A stretch of DNA of 64,000 nt from Dermatemys mawii (Eukaryota; Chordata; Testudines; Dermatemydidae): contig ML677348.1 in NCBI GenBank assembly GCA_007922305.1, positions 23,094,667-23,158,666 on the forward strand. The letters are read 5' to 3'. Positions 103-61,523 of this stretch are shown piece after piece. Numbering within the stretch: position 1 is the stretch's first letter; every line of letters starts with the position of its first letter. Made by a program: the position numbers and the translations under genes. The notes under the pieces were generated by a model. That model ran no database searches, was not told the DNA's origin, and worked only from the letters and a program-made list of their open reading frames with translations.

Positions 103-762
103 TGTGACAAAGCTCCAAGTCTGTACTTGTGGGTCCTGCGCTTCCTGGCAGATTTAGGGGCCTCAGAAACTCATCTAGGCCCCAGAGTGACCTCCCTTTC
201 TCAGTATAATTGGCAAGAGTCACCACCTAGTGAGTTGCCTTCATCACAGGCCAGTATGGAAGATGGAAAAAGGGGGGAGCCCGGGCCCGCCCTCTACTCC
301 GGATTCCAGCCCAGGGACCCTAATAGTATCAGCTAAGATGGCTGACCTTTTAGGCACAAAACACAATACAATTCCCTGGGCTACTTCCCCACAGCAGTCC
401 CTGCTTCTTCAAACTCCACTTCACCCTTACCTCAGGGCCTCCTTCCTTCAGTATGATACGTTGTCCAACACTCAGTCTCACCAACAGCATAACTTCCTTC
501 CACAGCTCCTGACACCCACACCCACCTGACTAACTGGGAGGTTTTTATCTGGTTTCAGCCAGTCCCTGATTGGCTTCAGGTGTCCCAATTAGGCTAGCTG
601 TTTCTACTCCTTTCTAGAAGGTTCTTAATTGGCCCCAGGTGTCTTGATTGGCCTGGAGTAGCCTTTGTTTGGCTATCCAGGGAACAAGGACCTGCACATC
701 CTGAGACTAATATACCTGCCTTCCAGCACTCTCCTATATACTTCTGGTCTGACTCCGTCACA
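103..762 (+). mobile_element. TGTGAC...GTCACA interspersed element, solo-LTR-like
   Basis: The element starts TGTGACAAAG and ends GACTCCGTCACA. It is flanked by ATAC on both sides (99-102 and 763-766). A related 558-bp copy lies at 13857-14414, where an empty-site paralogue proves the boundaries. TG...CA ends with a 4-bp duplication fit a solo LTR of an old retroelement. The six-base inverted ends and a possible 7-of-8 longer flank match (TTACATAC/ATACATAC) leave a non-autonomous DNA transposon possible. No protease, RT or envelope frame is attached, and the small open frames inside it are not coding. Orientation is arbitrary. Confidence 0.6.
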
Positions 763-12400: not shown

Positions 12401-12755
12401 GAACTTCTTAACAGATGAGGAGGAATGTGGTAAATGGTGTTAAATGCTCTATTCTGTTATATTACACTGCTCTACAGCCAAAATGCTTCTGAAATAAATG
12501 TAGTCCAACTTTACTAATTCTGGGTCACTGAGAACGAAAATGATGCTTAAAATTATGGATTGGCTCTAGTTTTCAAGATATGCTATTGGGTCAGTATATA
12601 CAACCCTTGACATGGGAATGGCGGAGGATAAGTGAGTTATAAAGGGAAGGGATCTCAATTTAAACCAGAAATGACTAAAATACATCTTTGACTGGATCTA
12701 TGAATAAATCTATGACTGGGTTTGGACAGTACTTGCTTTTTAGGCAAAACAATGA

Positions 12756-12837
12756 ATGATGCAATCTGAAGCTGGTATTGCATCATACATTATATGAATT
12801 GCATCATGTTATTCCTAGAAGTCATGGATGATGCAAT
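12756..12837 (+). promoter_or_regulatory. four C/EBP-ATF-type sites upstream of transposase, copy 1
   Basis: Four perfect 10-bp sites occur in 82 bp: ATGATGCAAT at 12756-12765 and 12828-12837, and its complement ATTGCATCAT at 12777-12786 and 12798-12807. The core TGATGCAAT / ATTGCATCA equals the C/EBP-ATF composite element (CARE/AARE) bound by ATF4 and C/EBP in stress-induced vertebrate promoters such as CHOP. The sites lie about 140-220 bp before the transposase ATG. A cluster of transposase-binding subterminal repeats is the alternative reading. Confidence 0.6.
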
Positions 12838-12974
12838 CATAACGAAGCTTACATCACTCTGCTGAACAAATTGCCCTATATCAGCTCTAGAAATCATACA
12901 GTGTCGTGCTCTCTTATTTGTCAGTGTTTGATTTTGCAAAGGGACACATTTCTGTTTAGCCAAAGTGAGCAGAG

Positions 12975-15115
12975 ATGCCTCGTACTTCTGTGAGCAGTGC
13001 AGATAACTTCTGCTATGTTTGTGGTGAAGTGACTTTTGCATCACAAAAGCACAGTATAACCACTATGGTTAAGAAAGCCTATCACCTTTATTTTGGCTGC
13101 AAAATTGGAGATCAGGACAAGAGGTGGGCCCCACACATATGCTGCAACACTTGTGCAACAAATCTTTGCCAGTGGTTGAACAGGAAAAGGAAATCTATGC
13201 CTTTTGCAGTGTCAATGATTTGGAGAGAGCCAACAGATCATACCAGCAATTGTTACTTCTGCATGGTGCCTCAAGTTGGGAAAGGTGTGTCAAAGAAGAA
13301 AAAGTGGACTGTGCATTATCCAAACATACCATCATCTATACGCCCAATACCCCACGGAGAAGGACTGCAGGTTCCTGATGCACCAGAATCATTCTCACTT
13401 GAGTCAGACGAGGAAGAGGATGAAACTTCTGGTCCTGAACTATCAATGTCACAGGACTCACATTTTCTCCCATCCTCCTCCTCTGAACCACACCTCATAA
13501 CACAAGCTGAACTGAATGACCTTGTGAGGGATTTGGAACTACCCAAGAGTAAGGCAGAGCTGTTGGGCTCCAGACTACAGCAGTGGAATCTCCTGGCAGG
13601 TGATGTTAGGGTTTCCATGTTCTGTGACCGCCAAAAGGATCTTGTCTCATTCTTCTTCATGGAAGGTGATCTTGTAGGCTTCAACAACATTGATGGTGTG
13701 ATGGCAGCCCTCAGCATCGTTCACGATCCAGACGAGTGGAGACTCTTCATTGATTCATCGAAGACGAGTCTTAAAGCTGTTTTGCTGCATAATGGCAATG
13801 TTTTGCCATCAATTCCAGTTGGTCATGCAGTCCATATGAAGGAAACCTATGACAACTGTGACAAAGCAGATTTAGGGGCTTCAGAAACTCAGCCAGGCCA
13901 CAGAGTGACCTCCCTTTCTCAGTAACTAATTAGGGGAGACAGAAATGGGGGAGCCCGGGCCCACCCTCTACTCCGGACTCCAGCCCAGGGACCCTAATAG
14001 TATCAGCTAAGATGGCTGACCTTTTAGGCACAAAACACAGTACAATTCCCTGGGCTACTTCCCCACAGCATTCTCCACTTCCTCAAACTCCACTTCACTC
14101 TTACCTCAGGGCCTCCTTCCTTCTGTATGATATGTTGTCCAACACTCAGTCTCACCAACAGCATAACTTCCTTCCACAGCTTCTGACACCCACAGCCCAC
14201 CTGACTAACTGGGAGGTTTTTATCTGGTTTCAGCCAGTCCCTGATTGACTTCAGGTGTCCCAATCAGGCTAGCTGTTTCTACTCCTTTCTAGAAGCTTCC
14301 TGATTGGCCTGGAGTAGCCTTTGTTTGGCTATCCAGGGAACAGAGACCTACACATCCTGAGGCTGATATACCTTCCAGCACTCTCCTATACCCTTCTGGT
14401 CTGACTCCATCACACAACATGAAACAACTTTTGAGGTGCATAAACTATGACCAACATCAGTGGCAACTCTGTGACGATTTGAAGGTTGTTGCTCTCTTGC
14501 TTGGTCTGCAGACTGGATACACAAAGTACTGCTGTTTTCTCTGCGAATGGGATAGTCGTGCAAGAGATTCCCACTACATCAAGAAAGATTGGCCACTCCG
14601 ACAGGCATTGGAGCCTGGGAGGAAAAGTGTTCAGCATCCACCACTTGTTGAATCAAGGAAGATTTTGTTACCACCCTTACACATCAAGCTGGGTGTGATG
14701 AAGAACTTTGTCAAGGCCATTGACAAAACACAAGCAGCTTTCAGGTACCTCCATGGAAAATTTCCAAGGTTAAGCCTTCCAGTCAGTGGCAATACATTTT
14801 CTCGGAAACAACAAGGCAGACAACTATAGGTTGTTGGTGGAAAGCCTCCTCAAGGCATACAAAAGCCTTGGTTGCAACATGTCACTAAAGATACATTTTT
14901 TGCACTCTCATCTAGATTTTTTTCCACCGAACTGCGGAGCAGTGAGCGACGAGCACGGCGAGCGATTTCACCAGGACATTGCAACAATGGAGAAACGCTA
15001 TCAGGGCAAATGGAACCCATCAATGCTTGCAGACTATTGCTGAACAGTGACAAGAGATGCTCCATTTAATGAATACAAGAGACAAGCCAAGAAGCGCCGA
15101 GTAGACACTGAATAG
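12975..15115 (+). pseudogene. broken transposase-like gene, copy 1
   Basis: The frame opens at ATG 12975 and runs to about codon 294, where the 558-bp element at 13857-14414 interrupts it. It resumes at 14419, then loses frame at 14774/14775, where 110 bp present in copy 2 are missing. A TGA shared with copy 2 lies near the end, and the likely original stop is TAG 15113-15115. Visible parts are N-terminal zinc-finger-like pairs (C13-x2-C16, C57-x2-C60, C93-x2-C96), an acidic low-complexity linker, RLFIDSSKTS with a candidate catalytic Asp, CDDLKVVALLLG with a second Asp, YCCFLCEW, and (after the frameshift) GERFHQDIA with a candidate Glu. The layout resembles DDE transposases with a C-x2-C insert. 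The family is widespread as uncharacterised animal proteins. It is non-functional here. Confidence 0.8.
13857..14414 (+). mobile_element. 558-bp TGTGAC...ATCACA element inserted in the transposase
   Basis: It starts TGTGACAAAGCAG and ends CTGACTCCATCACA, flanked by the 4-bp duplication CAAC (13853-13856 and 14415-14418). Copy 2 of the host transposon has the uninterrupted site at 60363-60371, so the boundaries are directly verified. It is related along its length to 103-762 but about 100 bp shorter through internal deletions. TG...CA ends with 4-bp duplication favour a solo LTR. No internal coding region. Confidence 0.75.
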
Positions 15116-15402
15116 GACTAAACTATGTACATAATAGTTTTTTGCCTTTTGTTTCATAATACATTTTATTTATATAACCCTTTTGCTGATTTTTGAAGTG
15201 TTACATAAACAGGACAGGTGAAATGTTATCATGTAAAGCAACCATAAACACATGCAAAGACCTAGGTTTACAATTTATGATTAAAACTCTACTATCTACA
15301 CAATATACATAGACATAAAATGTAAAAACTTAAATATCTTAGAAACAGTAGCCAATCAGTTGTTTTAATTGTCATATTTGAATTCAGCACATCAAAATAC
15401 AT

Positions 15403-15408
15403 AATAAA
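15403..15408 (+). terminator. candidate polyadenylation signal, transposon copy 1
   Basis: AATAAA, 52 bp before the right terminus and about 290 bp after the transposase stop. It is conserved at the same offset in copy 2. Confidence 0.4.
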
Positions 15409-15463
15409 TATCACATTTTATCTCTGAAGCAGACGACTTCTAAAAAATTGTAGACCAGTGTTA

Positions 15464-22098: not shown

Positions 22099-23416
22099 CA
22101 GACTCATAGGGTGAGACACGACTGCAAGGGTCATCTAATCTAACCCCTGCCAAGATGCAGGATTTGTTATGTCTAAAGCATCCAAGACAGATGGCTACCC
22201 AGCCCCCTTTTGAAAACCTCCAGCAAAGATTCCACAGCTTCCCTGGGCAGTCTCTTCCATTGTCCTACTGTTCTTACAGTTAGGAAGTTTTTCCTGAGAT
22301 TTAATCTAAATCTGCTATGCTGTAGTTTGAACCCGTTGCCTCTTGTCCTGCCTTCTATGGCAAGAGAGAACAACTTTTCCATTTTTTTATGGCAGCCTTT
22401 TAAGTATTTGAAGACCGCTATCATTTCCCCCACTTAATCTCTACTTTTCCAAACTAAACGTACCCAGTTCCTTCATCCTTTGCTTGAATGGCTTGCATTC
22501 CATCCCTTTGAACATCTTTGTTGCTCACTTCTGGATTCTTTCCAGTTTCTCTCCATCCTTTCTATATATTGGTTTCCAAAATTGTACACAGTACTCCAGC
22601 AGAGGCCTGACTAGCACCAAGTAGAGCAGCACTATCACCTCCCATGGTTTGCATGTTATGCTTCTGTTAATATAATCTAAAATTGCATTTTTGTTTGTTT
22701 ATTTATTTATTTACTTCTTTATTTTTGCAACAGCATTGCATTGCTGACTCATGTTGAGGTTGTGATCCACCACAACTCCCGGATCCTTTTCAGTATTGCT
22801 GCTGCTAAGACAGCTATCCCTCAGTCTGTATTTGTTCATTTGTTTTTTCTTCCCTAAGTGTAGCACCTTACATTTGTCTCTGTTGAATGTCATTTTGTTG
22901 TCTACAGCCCAGTTCTGAAGTTTATCAGGATCCCTCTGAATCTTAGCTCTATCCTCCAAAGTTTTGGCAACCCTCCCATCTTGCTTAGTGTCATCTGCAA
23001 ATGTGATCACTATGCGCTCTGTTCCTATATCTAGGTAATTAATAAAGATGTTAAATAACACTGAACCAAGAACAAATCCCTGTGGAACCCCAGCTGAGAC
23101 CTCCATCCATTCTGACATCATTCCATTAATAGTCACTCTTTGTTTGGGTTTGTTTAACCAATTATGTATCCACTTAATGGCAGTTCCACCAAGCTCACAT
23201 TTCTCCAGCTTACTTATCAGAATGTCATGTGGGACTGTGTCAAAAACCTTGCAAAGTCCAGGTATATTATGTCCACTGCATTCCACCAAATCAGTTACCC
23301 TGTCAAAAATGGAAATGAAAATGATTTGTTCTTGGTAAATCCATGCTGACTGCTAGTGATCACCCCTTCATCCTCCAGGTATTTGCAAATTGAATGTTTT
23401 ATATATTGCTCTAGTA
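22099..23416 (-). mobile_element. CR1 LINE, 3' half (reverse transcriptase and 3' UTR)
   Basis: The minus-strand frame at 22711-23289 encodes CR1-type reverse transcriptase: FDTVPHDILISKLEKCE, GVPQGFVLGSVLFNIFIN, then the catalytic TFADDTK and the NKMTFNRDKCKVLHLG block. Downstream is the CR1 3' region, with FRLNLRKNFL and GQWKRLPREAVESLLEVF at 22173-22433. The tail (reverse complement) is GTGTCTCACCCTATGAGTCT near 22096-22115. A T-rich run at 22690-22735 breaks the frame. It is degenerate and immobile. Confidence 0.85.
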
Positions 23417-38215: not shown

Positions 38216-39925
38216 TAAGAACATAAGAAAGGCCGTATTGGGTCAGACCAAATGTCCATCTAGCCCAGTATCCTGTCTACCGACAGTGGCCAATGCCAGG
38301 TGTCCCGTAGTGAGTGAACCTAGCAGGTAACGATCAAGTGATCTCTCTTCTGCCATCCCCTCTGACAAACAGAGGCTAGGGACACCATTCCTTACCCAGC
38401 CTGGCTAATAGCCATTAATGGACTTAGCCTCCATGAATTTATCCAGTTCTCTTTTAAACCCTGTTATAGTCCTAGTCTTCACAGCCTCCTCAGGCAAGAA
38501 GTTCCACAGGTTGACTGTGCGCTGTGTGAAGAAGAACTTCCTTTTATTTGTTTTAAACCTGCTGCCCACTAATTTCAATGGGTGGCTCCTAGTTCTGCTA
38601 TTATGGGAACTAGTAAATAATTTTTCCTTATTCACTTTCTCCACGCCACTCATAATTTTATATACCTCTATCATATCTCCCCTTAGTCTCCTCTTTCCCA
38701 AGCTAAAAAGTCCTAGCCTCTTTAATCTCTCCTCATATGGGACTCGTTCCAATCCCCTAATCATTTTAGTTGCCCTTCTCTGAACCTTTTTTAATGCCAT
38801 CATATCCTTTTTGAGATGAGGAGACCACATTTGTACATAGTATTCAAGATGTGGGCGCACCATGGATTTGTATAAGGGCAATAAGGTATTCTCCGTCTTA
38901 TTTTCTATCCCTTTGTTAATGATTCCTAACATCCTGTTTGCTTTTTTGACCGCCGCTGCACACTGCATGGACATCTTCAGAGAACTATCTACAATGACTC
39001 CAAGATCTTTTTCCTGAATAGTTGTAGCTAAATTAGCCCCATCATATTGTACGTATAGTTGGAGTTATTTTTTCCAAAGTGCATTACTTTACATTTATCC
39101 ACATTAAATTTCATTTGCCATTTTGTTGCCCAATCACTTAGTTTTGTGAGATCTTTTTGAAGTTCTTCACGGTCTGCTTGGGTCTTAACTATTTTGAGCA
39201 GTTTAGTATCATCTGCAAACTTTGCCACCTCACTGTTTACCCCTTCCTCCAAATCATTGATGAATAAGTTGAATAGGATTGGTCCTAGGACTGACCCTTG
39301 GGGAATACCACTAGTTACCCCTCTCCATTCTGAAAGTTTACCATTTATTCCTACCCTTTGTTCCCTGTCTTTTAACCAGTTCTCAATCCATGAAAGGATC
39401 ATCTTATCCCATGGCAACTTAATTTACATAAGAGCCTTTGGTGAGGGAGCTTGTCAAAGGCTTTCTGGAAATCTAAGTACACTACGTCCATTGGATCCCC
39501 CTTGTCCACATGTTTGTTGACCACTTCAAAGAACTCTAATAGATTAGTAATTTCCCTTTACAGAAACCATGCTGACTTTTGCCCAACAATTTATGTTCTT
39601 CTATGTGCCTAACAATTTTATTCTTTACTATTGTTTCAACTAATTTGCCTGGTACGGACGTTAGACGTACCGGTCTGTAGTTGCCGGGATCACCTCTAGA
39701 GCCCTTTTTAAATATAGGCGTTACATTAGCTATCTTCCAGTCATTGGGTACAGAAGCCGATTTAAAGGACAGGTTACAAACCCTAGTTTGTAACCCACAA
39801 TTTCACATTTAAGTTATTTCAGCATTCTTGGGTGAATGCCATCTGGTCCCGGTGACTTGTTACAGTTAAGTTTATCAATTAGTTCCCAGACCTCCTCTAG
39901 TGACACTTCAATCTGTGACAATTTA
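38216..39925 (-). mobile_element. CR1 LINE, 5'-truncated, best preserved in window
   Basis: On the minus strand 39028-39417 encodes GIPQGSVLGPILFNLFIND, KFADDTKLLKIVKTQADREE and WQMKFNVDKCKVMHFG (CR1 reverse transcriptase). 38405-38974 continues with AAVKKANRMLGIINKGIENK, MVRPHLEYYVQMWSPHLKKD, RRATKMIRGLE and a C-terminus ending KRELDKFMEAKSINGY. The short 3' UTR (38216-38404, reverse) contains CTGGGCTAGATGGACATTTG and GGTCTGACCCAATACGG. A frame break lies at about 38975-39027, and another near 39420. Upstream RT sequence fades out near 39925. It is recent-looking but dead. Confidence 0.9.
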
Positions 39926-58740: not shown

Positions 58741-59261
58741 AACACAGACACCTCAGAAGGTTAGAGTGATTACACCTGAAAATTTCTATCATCTTTTTCT
58801 ATATTCATTGCCTGAACAAACAGCAAAGCCTATCTTATTCTGTTTTTTCTGCATCTTTGGTTAGCATCTCCAGAAACTTGGACACAATAGTCTGTGATTT
58901 TCTCTTCAGACTGACAACCAATGGAATTAAGAGGGAATGTATTTTTCCTTTTGGATGCTTGTGGCCATTACACTGCTCTACAGCCAAAATGCTTCTGAAA
59001 TAAATGTAGTTAAACTTTACTAATTCTGGGTCACTGAGAACGAAAATGATGCTTAAAATTGTGGATTGGCTCTAGTTTTCAAGATATGCTATTGGGTCAG
59101 TATATACGACCCTTGACATGGGAATGGCGGAGGATAAGTGATTTATAAAGGGAAGGGATCTCAATTTAAACCAGAAATGACTAAAATACATCTTTGACTG
59201 GATCTATGAATAAATCTATGACTGGGTTTGGACAGTACTTGCTTTTTAGGCAAAACAATGA

Positions 59262-59343
59262 ATGATGCAATCTGAAGCTGGTATTGCATCATACATTATA
59301 TGAATTGCATCATGTTATTCCTAGAAGTCATGGATGATGCAAT
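59262..59343 (+). promoter_or_regulatory. four C/EBP-ATF-type sites upstream of transposase, copy 2
   Basis: The same four sites as in copy 1, all unchanged: ATGATGCAAT at 59262-59271 and 59334-59343, ATTGCATCAT at 59283-59292 and 59304-59313. The nearest is about 138 bp before the ATG at 59481. The motif was not found near the right end of the element, which favours a promoter role over symmetrical transposase-binding sites. Confidence 0.6.
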
Positions 59344-59480
59344 CATAACGAAGCTTACATCACTCTGCTGAACAAATTGCCCTATATCAGCTCTAGAAAT
59401 CATACAGTGTCGTGCTCTCTTATTTGTCAGTGTTTGATTTTGCAAAGGGACACATTTCTGTTTAGCCAAAGTGAGCAGAG

Positions 59481-61175
59481 ATGCCTCGTACTTCTGTGAG
59501 CAGTGCAGATAACTTCTGCTATGTTTGTGGTGAAGTGACTTTTGCATCACAAAAGCACAGTATAACCACTATGGTTAAGAAAGCCTATCACCTTTATTTT
59601 GGCTGCAAAATTGGAGATCAGGACAAGAGGTGGGCCCCACACATATGCTGCAACACTTGTGCAACAAATCTTTGCCAGTGGTTGAACAGGAAAAGGAAAT
59701 CTATGCCTTTTGCAGTGTCAATGATTTGGAGAGAGCCAACAGATCATACCAGCAATTGTTACTTCTGCATGGTGCCTCCAGTTGGGAAAGGTGTGTCAAA
59801 GAAGAAAAAGTGGACTGTGCATTATCCAAACATACCATCATCTATACGCCCAATACCCCACGGAGAAGGACTGCCGGTTCCTGATGCACCAGAATCATTC
59901 TCACTTGAGTCAGACGAGGAAGAGGAAGAGGATGAAACTTCTGGTCCTGAACCATCAATGTCACAGGACCCACATTTTCTCCCATCCTCCTCCTCTGAAC
60001 CACACCTCATAACACAAGCTGAACTGAATGACCTTGTCAGGGATTTGGAACTACCCAAGAGTAAGGCAGAGCTGTTGGGCTCCAGACTACAGCAGTGGAA
60101 TCTCCTGGCAGGTGATGTTAGGGTTTCCGTGTTCCGTGACCGTCAAAAGGATCTTGTCCCATTCTTCTTCATGGAAGTTGATCTTGTAGCCTGCAACAAC
60201 ATTGATGGTGTGATGGCAGCCCTCAACATCGTTCACGATCCAGACGAGTGGAGACTCTTCACTGATTCATCGAAGACGAGTCTTAAAGCTGTTTTGCTGC
60301 ATAATGGCAATGTTTTGCCATCAATTCCAGTTGGTCATGCAGTCCATATGAAGGAAACCTATGACAACATGAAATAACTTTTGAGGTGCATAAACTATGA
60401 CCAATATCAGTGGCAGCTTTGTGTCGATTTGAAGGTTGTTGCTCTCTTGCTTGGTCTGCAGACTGGATACACAAAGTACTGCTGTTTTCTCTGCGAATGG
60501 GATAGTCGTGCAAGAGATTCCCACTACATCAAGAAAGATTAGCCACTCCGACAGTCATTGGAGCCTGGGAGGAAAAGTGTTTAGCATCCACCACTTGTTG
60601 AATCAAGGAAGATTTTGTTACCACCCTTACACATCAAGCTGGGTCTGATGAAGAACTTTGTCAAGGCCATTGACAAAACACAAGCAGCTTTCAAGTACCT
60701 GCATGGAAAATTTCCAAGGTTAAGTGAAGCTAAGATAAAGGAAGGTGTCTTTGTTGATCCTCAGATTCGTGAACTTCTTCGAGATGATGCATTTGACCAT
60801 GCACTGCGTGGCAAGGAAAAGACGGCATGGAAAGCCTTCCAGTCAGTGGCAATCCATTTTCTCGGAAACAACAAGGCAGACAACTACAGGTTGTTGGTGG
60901 AAAGCCTCCTCAAGGCCTACAAAAGCCTTGGTTGCAACATGTCACTAAAGATACATTTTTTGCACTCTCATCTAGATTTTTTTCCACCGAACTGCGGAGC
61001 AGTGAGCGACAAGCACGGCGAGCGATTTCACCAGGACATTGCAACAATGGAGAAACACTATCATGGCAAATGGAGCCCATCAGTGCCTGCAGACTATTGC
61101 TGAACAGTGACAAGAGATGCTCCATTTAATGAATACAAGAGAGAAGCCAAGAAGCGCCTAGTAGACACTGAATAG
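59481..61175 (+). pseudogene. transposase-like gene, copy 2, with in-frame stops
   Basis: One frame runs from ATG 59481 to a likely original stop TAG 61173-61175 (564 codons). It is interrupted by TAA 60375-60377, TAG 60540-60542, TAG 60582-60584 and TGA 61101-61103. Copy 1 has sense codons (CAA, TGG, CAG) at the first three, so those are private. The TGA is shared. Features by codon: C13-x2-C16, C57-x2-C60 and C93-x2-C96 (zinc-finger-like), an acidic run near 143-155, TDSSKTS with D262, VDLKVVALLLG with D316, C335-x2-C338, a 110-bp segment absent from copy 1 (60725-60834), and GERFHQDI with E514. D262/D316/E514 is an inferred DDE set. The longest clean frames are 298 and about 162 codons. 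It is dead as it stands. Confidence 0.82.
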
Positions 61176-61462
61176 GACTAAACTATGTACATAATAGTTT
61201 TTTGCCTTTTGTTTCATAATACATTTTATTTATATAACCCTTTTGCTGATTTTTGAAGTGTTAAATAAACAAGATAGGTGAAATATTATCATGTAAAGCA
61301 ACCATAAACACATGAAAAGACCTAGGTTTACAATTTATGATTAAAACTCTACTATCTACACAATATACATAGACATAAAATGTAAAAACTTAAATATCTT
61401 AGAAACAGTAGCCAATCAGTTGTTTTAATTGTCATATTTGAATTCAGCACATCAAAATACAT

Positions 61463-61468
61463 AATAAA
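61463..61468 (+). terminator. candidate polyadenylation signal, transposon copy 2
   Basis: AATAAA 52 bp before the right end, at the same offset as in copy 1. An additional AATAAA at about 61265 arises from a copy-specific change. Confidence 0.4.
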
Positions 61469-61523
61469 TATCACATTTTATCTCTGAAGCAGACGACTTC
61501 TAAAAAATTGTAGACCAGTGTTA

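Follow-up and report, generated by a model that had tools for sequence, protein, structure and literature searches.

Chapaev3 transposons, of which the families Merrow, Garfield and Conan are described in PMC4079192, have CAC...GTG ends and a TWA target-site duplication (TSD), with A and T beside the TSD; in anole, Chapaev is extinct according to PMC7397244. On the host side, the consensus of the amino acid response element (AARE) is printed as TGATGCAAT in PMC6480217, and composite sites of the form TGATGCAA are activated by ATF4-C/EBPbeta (PMC7049960). The present study concerns a window of 64 kb, i.e. the whole stretch of DNA analysed (64,000 nucleotides of contig ML677348.1 from the turtle Dermatemys mawii), which contains two copies, W1 and W2, of a Chapaev3-like transposon. 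Near its left end, this element carries an array of AARE-like sites, which is confirmed here and found widely across the family.

In W1, ATGATGCAAT occurs four times within 82 bp (12756-12837), in the order +, -, -, +: site 1 at 12756-12765 (+), site 2 at 12777-12786 (-), site 3 at 12798-12807 (-) and site 4 at 12828-12837 (+). W2 repeats the array, which as a whole has no strand, at 59262-59343, with ATGATGCAAT at 59262 (+), 59283 (-), 59304 (-) and 59334 (+). The initial annotation of this DNA had described four sites, two per orientation, within 82 bp and 138-219 bp before the transposase start; the coordinates are confirmed in both window copies, and the distances to the transposase ATG at 12975 are correct. 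The 9-mer TGATGCAAT is found eight times in the window, four times per element copy and nowhere else, as compared to a mean of 1.40 and a maximum of 5 in shuffled sequences (eight or more in 0 of 100 shuffles). In addition, the array word is the only 10-mer in the window with four non-overlapping copies per about 100 bp, and in dinucleotide shuffles of the element any 10-mer reached at least four occurrences within 100 bp, overlapping copies counted, in 6 of 1000 cases. The background was estimated from 168,905 bases of non-element sequence, which include the window's non-element part and whose loci possibly overlap somewhat; the 9-mer is found there twice, or about 12 times per Mb. Hence, in a genome of this kind the cluster is rare, but single TGATGCAAT sites are not.

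The sites start 21, 21 and 30 bp apart. Three of them are exactly in helical phase and the fourth is 51 degrees off; three spacings so close to whole turns have a chance of about 0.02, by a criterion picked after the data had been seen. Common to all four sites is a 10-bp core, the size expected for one basic leucine zipper (bZIP) dimer site. Outside this core the flanks are mostly unrelated, and downstream of it no run of more than one base is common to three sites.

Terminal motifs, TSDs and transposase motifs bear out the initial description of a DNA transposon. The element is about 2.55 kb long, and the two window copies lie in the same orientation (+ strand) and are 97-98% alike outside gaps. 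W1 (12465-15460, CACTG...CAGTG) is bounded by a TTA TSD at 12462-12464 and 15461-15463, with A and T flanking it, and W2 (58971-61520, same ends) by TTA at 58968-58970 and 61521-61523. Among 22 copies, the left CACTG is found in all 22 and the right CAGTG in 20, with TAGTG in L019 and L025. For TSD scoring, 12 of 62 copies were set aside (7 with a changed end motif, 5 with an end missing from the matched stretch). An exact 3-bp TSD is found in 47 of the 50 scorable copies (TTA 25, TAA 20, TAT 2), TWA thus accounting for 45 of 50. An A lies to the left of the TSD in 43 of these 47 copies and both A and T are present in 32, a strong preference rather than the "always" of the description in PMC4079192.

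Alignment of 40 relatives of the transposase showed that C333/C336, L381/H382, H490/H495, D260, D314 and E509 (numbered on the L067 frame) are invariant in 40 out of 40; by our own assignment, these columns would be the C(2)C, LH, H(4)H and DDE motifs. The fold of the transposase is predicted to be RAG1/Transib-like (RNase H catalytic), RAG1 and Transib being the nearest solved folds, and CMC transposons are related to RAG1. Taken together, the CACTG...CAGTG ends, the TWA TSD, the C(2)C/LH/H(4)H motifs and the predicted fold assign the element to Chapaev3, a group within the CMC transposons. The closest named protein match to the transposase is from Chrysemys picta (91%). The transposase matches no Pfam family, and searches of PDB sequences gave nothing better than an E value of 0.46, or no match. 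No relative came to light when viral and prokaryote contigs were scanned with the transposase and viral contigs with the array pattern, nor in phage records.

The array is located about 290-375 bp from the left end of the element. In W2, no site with two or fewer mismatches is present in the right-hand 470 bp, the rightmost such match being a single 2-mismatch site that starts at 2069 of 2552. The same motif array at both ends, which the initial annotation had named as a sign against its own interpretation, was looked for, and the array is at the left end only. This is the transposase-start side. The label of transposase promoter is our inference, and further upstream there is a TATA-like box (TATAAA, 12638-12643, +, a consensus match only, ending 113 bp from site 1) that could put the array within the transcript.

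The 1.815-Gb genome was searched with array, left-end and transposase probes, scored counts being lower bounds. Of 135 first-look candidates found with the array probe, at least 40 were scored; the left-end probe gave at least 40 out of 60, and the transposase probe at least 115 out of 5138. By extrapolation from the first-look figure, copies would number in the thousands. All 60 fetched copies (20 per probe sample) match the window element. In an unselected sample of 41 copies chosen regardless of the array (W2, 20 copies picked by their left 234 bp and 20 picked by the transposase), four sites are present in 23 and three in 18, counting ATGA[TC]GCAAT, so that all 41 keep three or four. Site 2 is mixed, with ATTGCGTCAT in 19 copies, ATTGCATCAT in 16 and other forms in 6; as a 9-mer, it reads TGACGCAAT in 19 copies and TGATGCAAT in 16. 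At 12777-12786, the commonest family form is ATGACGCAAT (19 of 41 copies). Four perfect TGATGCAAT sites are probably not the founding state, since site 2 most often reads TGACGCAAT. A CpG-to-CA change at site 2 is found in 17 of 41 copies as compared to 184 of 1623 over all CpG positions, and in view of this excess the TGATGCAAT form of site 2 probably goes back to inheritance in addition to decay. The spacer between sites 2 and 3 (12787-12797) has a T in 2 of the 41 unselected copies, W2 among them, and the window copies belong to a minor subfamily with this T. The eight window sites are indeed identical, as first noted, but the two copies share this minor array form, so their identity is not by itself evidence of constraint.

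Each array site equals the 9-bp AARE consensus, except for the family variants at site 2, and the initial reading of the word as a C/EBP-ATF composite element (C/EBP-ATF response element, CARE, or AARE) matches the consensus in PMC6480217 and PMC7049960. The alternative TGACGCAAT at site 2 leaves everything but the ATF half-site as it is; there, TGATG becomes TGACG, a cyclic-AMP-element half-site and a form accepted by ATF factors. Because the sites equal the published consensus and the common variant keeps an ATF-acceptable half-site, ATF4-C/EBP is the best-fitting candidate. We therefore tentatively favour, at slightly less than an even chance, a model in which the array is bound by bZIP factors of the host, ATF4-C/EBP being the most likely, and transposase expression rises as a result. 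Here, four bZIP-type sites in nearly helical phase in the 5' non-coding region would regulate the element's own transposase gene. They would be bound by a host bZIP factor, the best fit being ATF4-C/EBP, a heterodimer that acts in the integrated stress response. Binding would raise transposase transcription, stress being the trigger, and the family founder would already have carried the array. If ATF4 is the binding factor, it would follow that transposition is tied to stress via a four-site ATF4-C/EBP array and that ready-made ATF4-responsive arrays, perhaps thousands, are scattered genome-wide. We regard this wider claim as somewhat unlikely.

Several observations weigh against ATF4-C/EBP control. 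As the TATA-like box is upstream of the array, the latter would be either upstream of the transcript or inside it. AAREs can work from transcribed regions, as illustrated by the one in exon 4 of Gadd45a (PMC7049960). An ATG is found at -4 to -2 in three of the four sites, a shared run of at least three bases being obtained in 685 of 20,000 random-flank trials, and this extension could hint at a longer, non-bZIP footprint. In the 41 copies, the sites have 1.32% substitutions per base without the polymorphic column as compared to 1.41% in the non-CpG 5' flanks, and 2.45% with this column as compared to 1.71% in all 5' flanks. When masks of the same shape were slid over the 5' region, 83% of 428 were at or below the site rate (polymorphic column included). 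In this comparison, confined to copies of one genome, the sites are hence kept no more strictly than their neighbours, an outcome that the initial annotation had named as refuting its interpretation. Yet the three codon positions of the transposase also decay alike (1.42, 1.35 and 1.25% for positions 1, 2 and 3, non-CpG), and therefore the test is uninformative: copies decay neutrally after insertion, and even transposase function is invisible to it. Within-genome conservation was for this reason rejected as proof of function. A rate of 0.18% in one 50-bp block, which had made the array region look conserved, was also discarded as a selection artefact, as the 22-copy sample (20 fetched copies, W1 and W2) had been picked by similarity to the array; the 41-copy sample replaced it for conservation. 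Overall, the initial interpretation is partly supported: the transposon and the AARE-matching array stand, the array is on the transposase-start side only, and the sites are no better kept than their flanks in a test without power.

Instead of a host factor, the transposase could bind the sites through an N-terminal domain rich in cysteines, or some other factor encoded by the element could do so; the sites would then be a one-sided transposition enhancer or a self-repression operator. That the repeats are perfect, run in both orientations and lie near one end would suit this role, as would the possible 3-bp extension common to three of the four sites and the conserved N-terminal cysteines of the transposase (in 22 sequences, C57/C60 are invariant, and C13/C16 and C93/C96 nearly so). 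Internally deleted copies also retain the array, with four sites in L021, L022 and L049 and three in L038, but all were found with left-side probes, so this retention is partly a probe effect. On the other hand, the sites lie about 290-375 bp from the end, and RAG1 and Transib act on terminal signals. Since the right end is devoid of the array, transposase-binding repeats are less likely than a host bZIP array, and we hold this explanation to be unlikely. Another possibility is a different host factor that recognizes a similar word, such as C/EBP or other bZIP dimers, and that would serve, for instance, germline or tissue expression rather than the integrated stress response. All sites contain GCAAT, the C/EBP half-site, and bZIP dimers overlap in specificity; however, TGATGCAAT is the ATF4-C/EBP composite consensus and not the C/EBP palindrome, and we consider such a factor quite improbable.

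A role in RNA, to which we attach the same low probability, would have hairpins (sites 1/2 and 3/4) and upstream AUGs in a TATA-started leader control translation. The predicted RNA fold of W2 59250-59360 does consist of two hairpins (z -2.58, with 2 of 200 shuffles as stable), the variant of site 2 would still pair, as G-U, TATAAA is upstream of site 1, and several upstream ATGs are found in and around the array. Nevertheless, the +, -, -, + order of any one word folds in this way, DNA folding gives a similar result (z -3.29), and hairpins do not require perfect 10-bp identity across four sites. Finally, the array could have no present function, having arisen in the founder by chance or duplication and been passed on as the family multiplied. 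Equal decay of sites and flanks is consistent with this, but a 10-mer present four times in 100 bp is rare in the shuffles, overlaps counted, and unique in the window, and the mostly unrelated flanks of the sites do not suggest a simple tandem duplication. We regard this last explanation as very unlikely.

Transposase frames are broken in both window copies. In W1, the first part (12975-13925, +) is interrupted, and its last residues lie inside an insertion (13857-14414, unstranded, about 558 bp) that is not part of the element and has a 4-bp direct repeat, CAAC, on both sides; a later part is found at 14419-14829 (+), with about 110 bp of W2 missing near 14772. The W2 frame (59481-60377, +) is cut short at 298 residues, and a separate C-terminal frame is located at 60615-61103 (+). 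Elsewhere in the genome, 29 of the 115 scored transposase matches have open frames of 561-566 residues, stop-free within the match, one of them being L067 with a single frame of 564 residues. Because these frames are kept open, activity of the family may be recent on an evolutionary scale. If turtles accumulate 0.5-1 x 10^-9 substitutions per site and year, a divergence of 1.3-1.4% would date the main activity to roughly 14-28 million years ago. The W1 insertion, which starts with TGTGAC and ends with TCACA, is presumably a lone long terminal repeat (LTR); its part 13943-14376 is 91-96% like window positions 269-720. In the caecilian Rhinatrema bivittatum, a predicted protein (P0019) has a PF01352 domain, which we take to be KRAB, followed by the N-terminal part of the transposase (83% identity over 71% of the query), and it is possibly either a KRAB-transposase fusion gene or a gene-model artefact. 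In addition, the minus strand of the window has frames at 22711-23289, 38405-38974 and 39028-39417 with FADDTK-type reverse-transcriptase motifs or neighbouring sequence resembling long interspersed nuclear elements, which we assume to be CR1-like.

If the array answers to ATF4, the family would offer a concrete and cheap way to test the old notion that vertebrate transposons are awakened by stress, by way of a pathway and a DNA word that are both known. Transposition bursts would then be tied to cell stress in a vertebrate cut-and-paste transposon, and the dispersed family would be a natural experiment on whether transposon-borne stress elements rewire nearby genes. Our literature search found nothing on ATF4/CARE sites in transposon promoters or on subterminal transposase binding in Chapaev, which does not prove their absence from print; the main text of PMC7922186, which reviews vertebrate transposons under stress, does not mention ATF4.

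The turtle element resembles the Chapaev3 transposons of PMC4079192 in its CAC...GTG ends, its 3-bp TWA TSD and the A/T preference beside it, as well as in the C(2)C, LH and H(4)H motifs, the single long transposase frame and the wide animal spread. In contrast to these families, for which the consulted part of PMC4079192 reports no such array, it has four clustered sites, and it was assigned by features rather than by the sequence of a named family. With the AAREs and CAREs of vertebrate stress genes it shares the identical 9-bp word, given as TGATGCAA in PMC7049960; the turtle sites differ in being four within 82 bp, inside a transposon. En/Spm and P elements carry short perfect subterminal repeats for transposase binding at both of their ends. 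The turtle array likewise consists of short perfect repeats that occur in either orientation and lie within the element near an end, but at the left end only. ONSEN of Arabidopsis is a heat-responsive LTR retrotransposon whose induction has been shown, whereas the turtle element is a cut-and-paste transposon; in both, host stress elements would drive a transposon.
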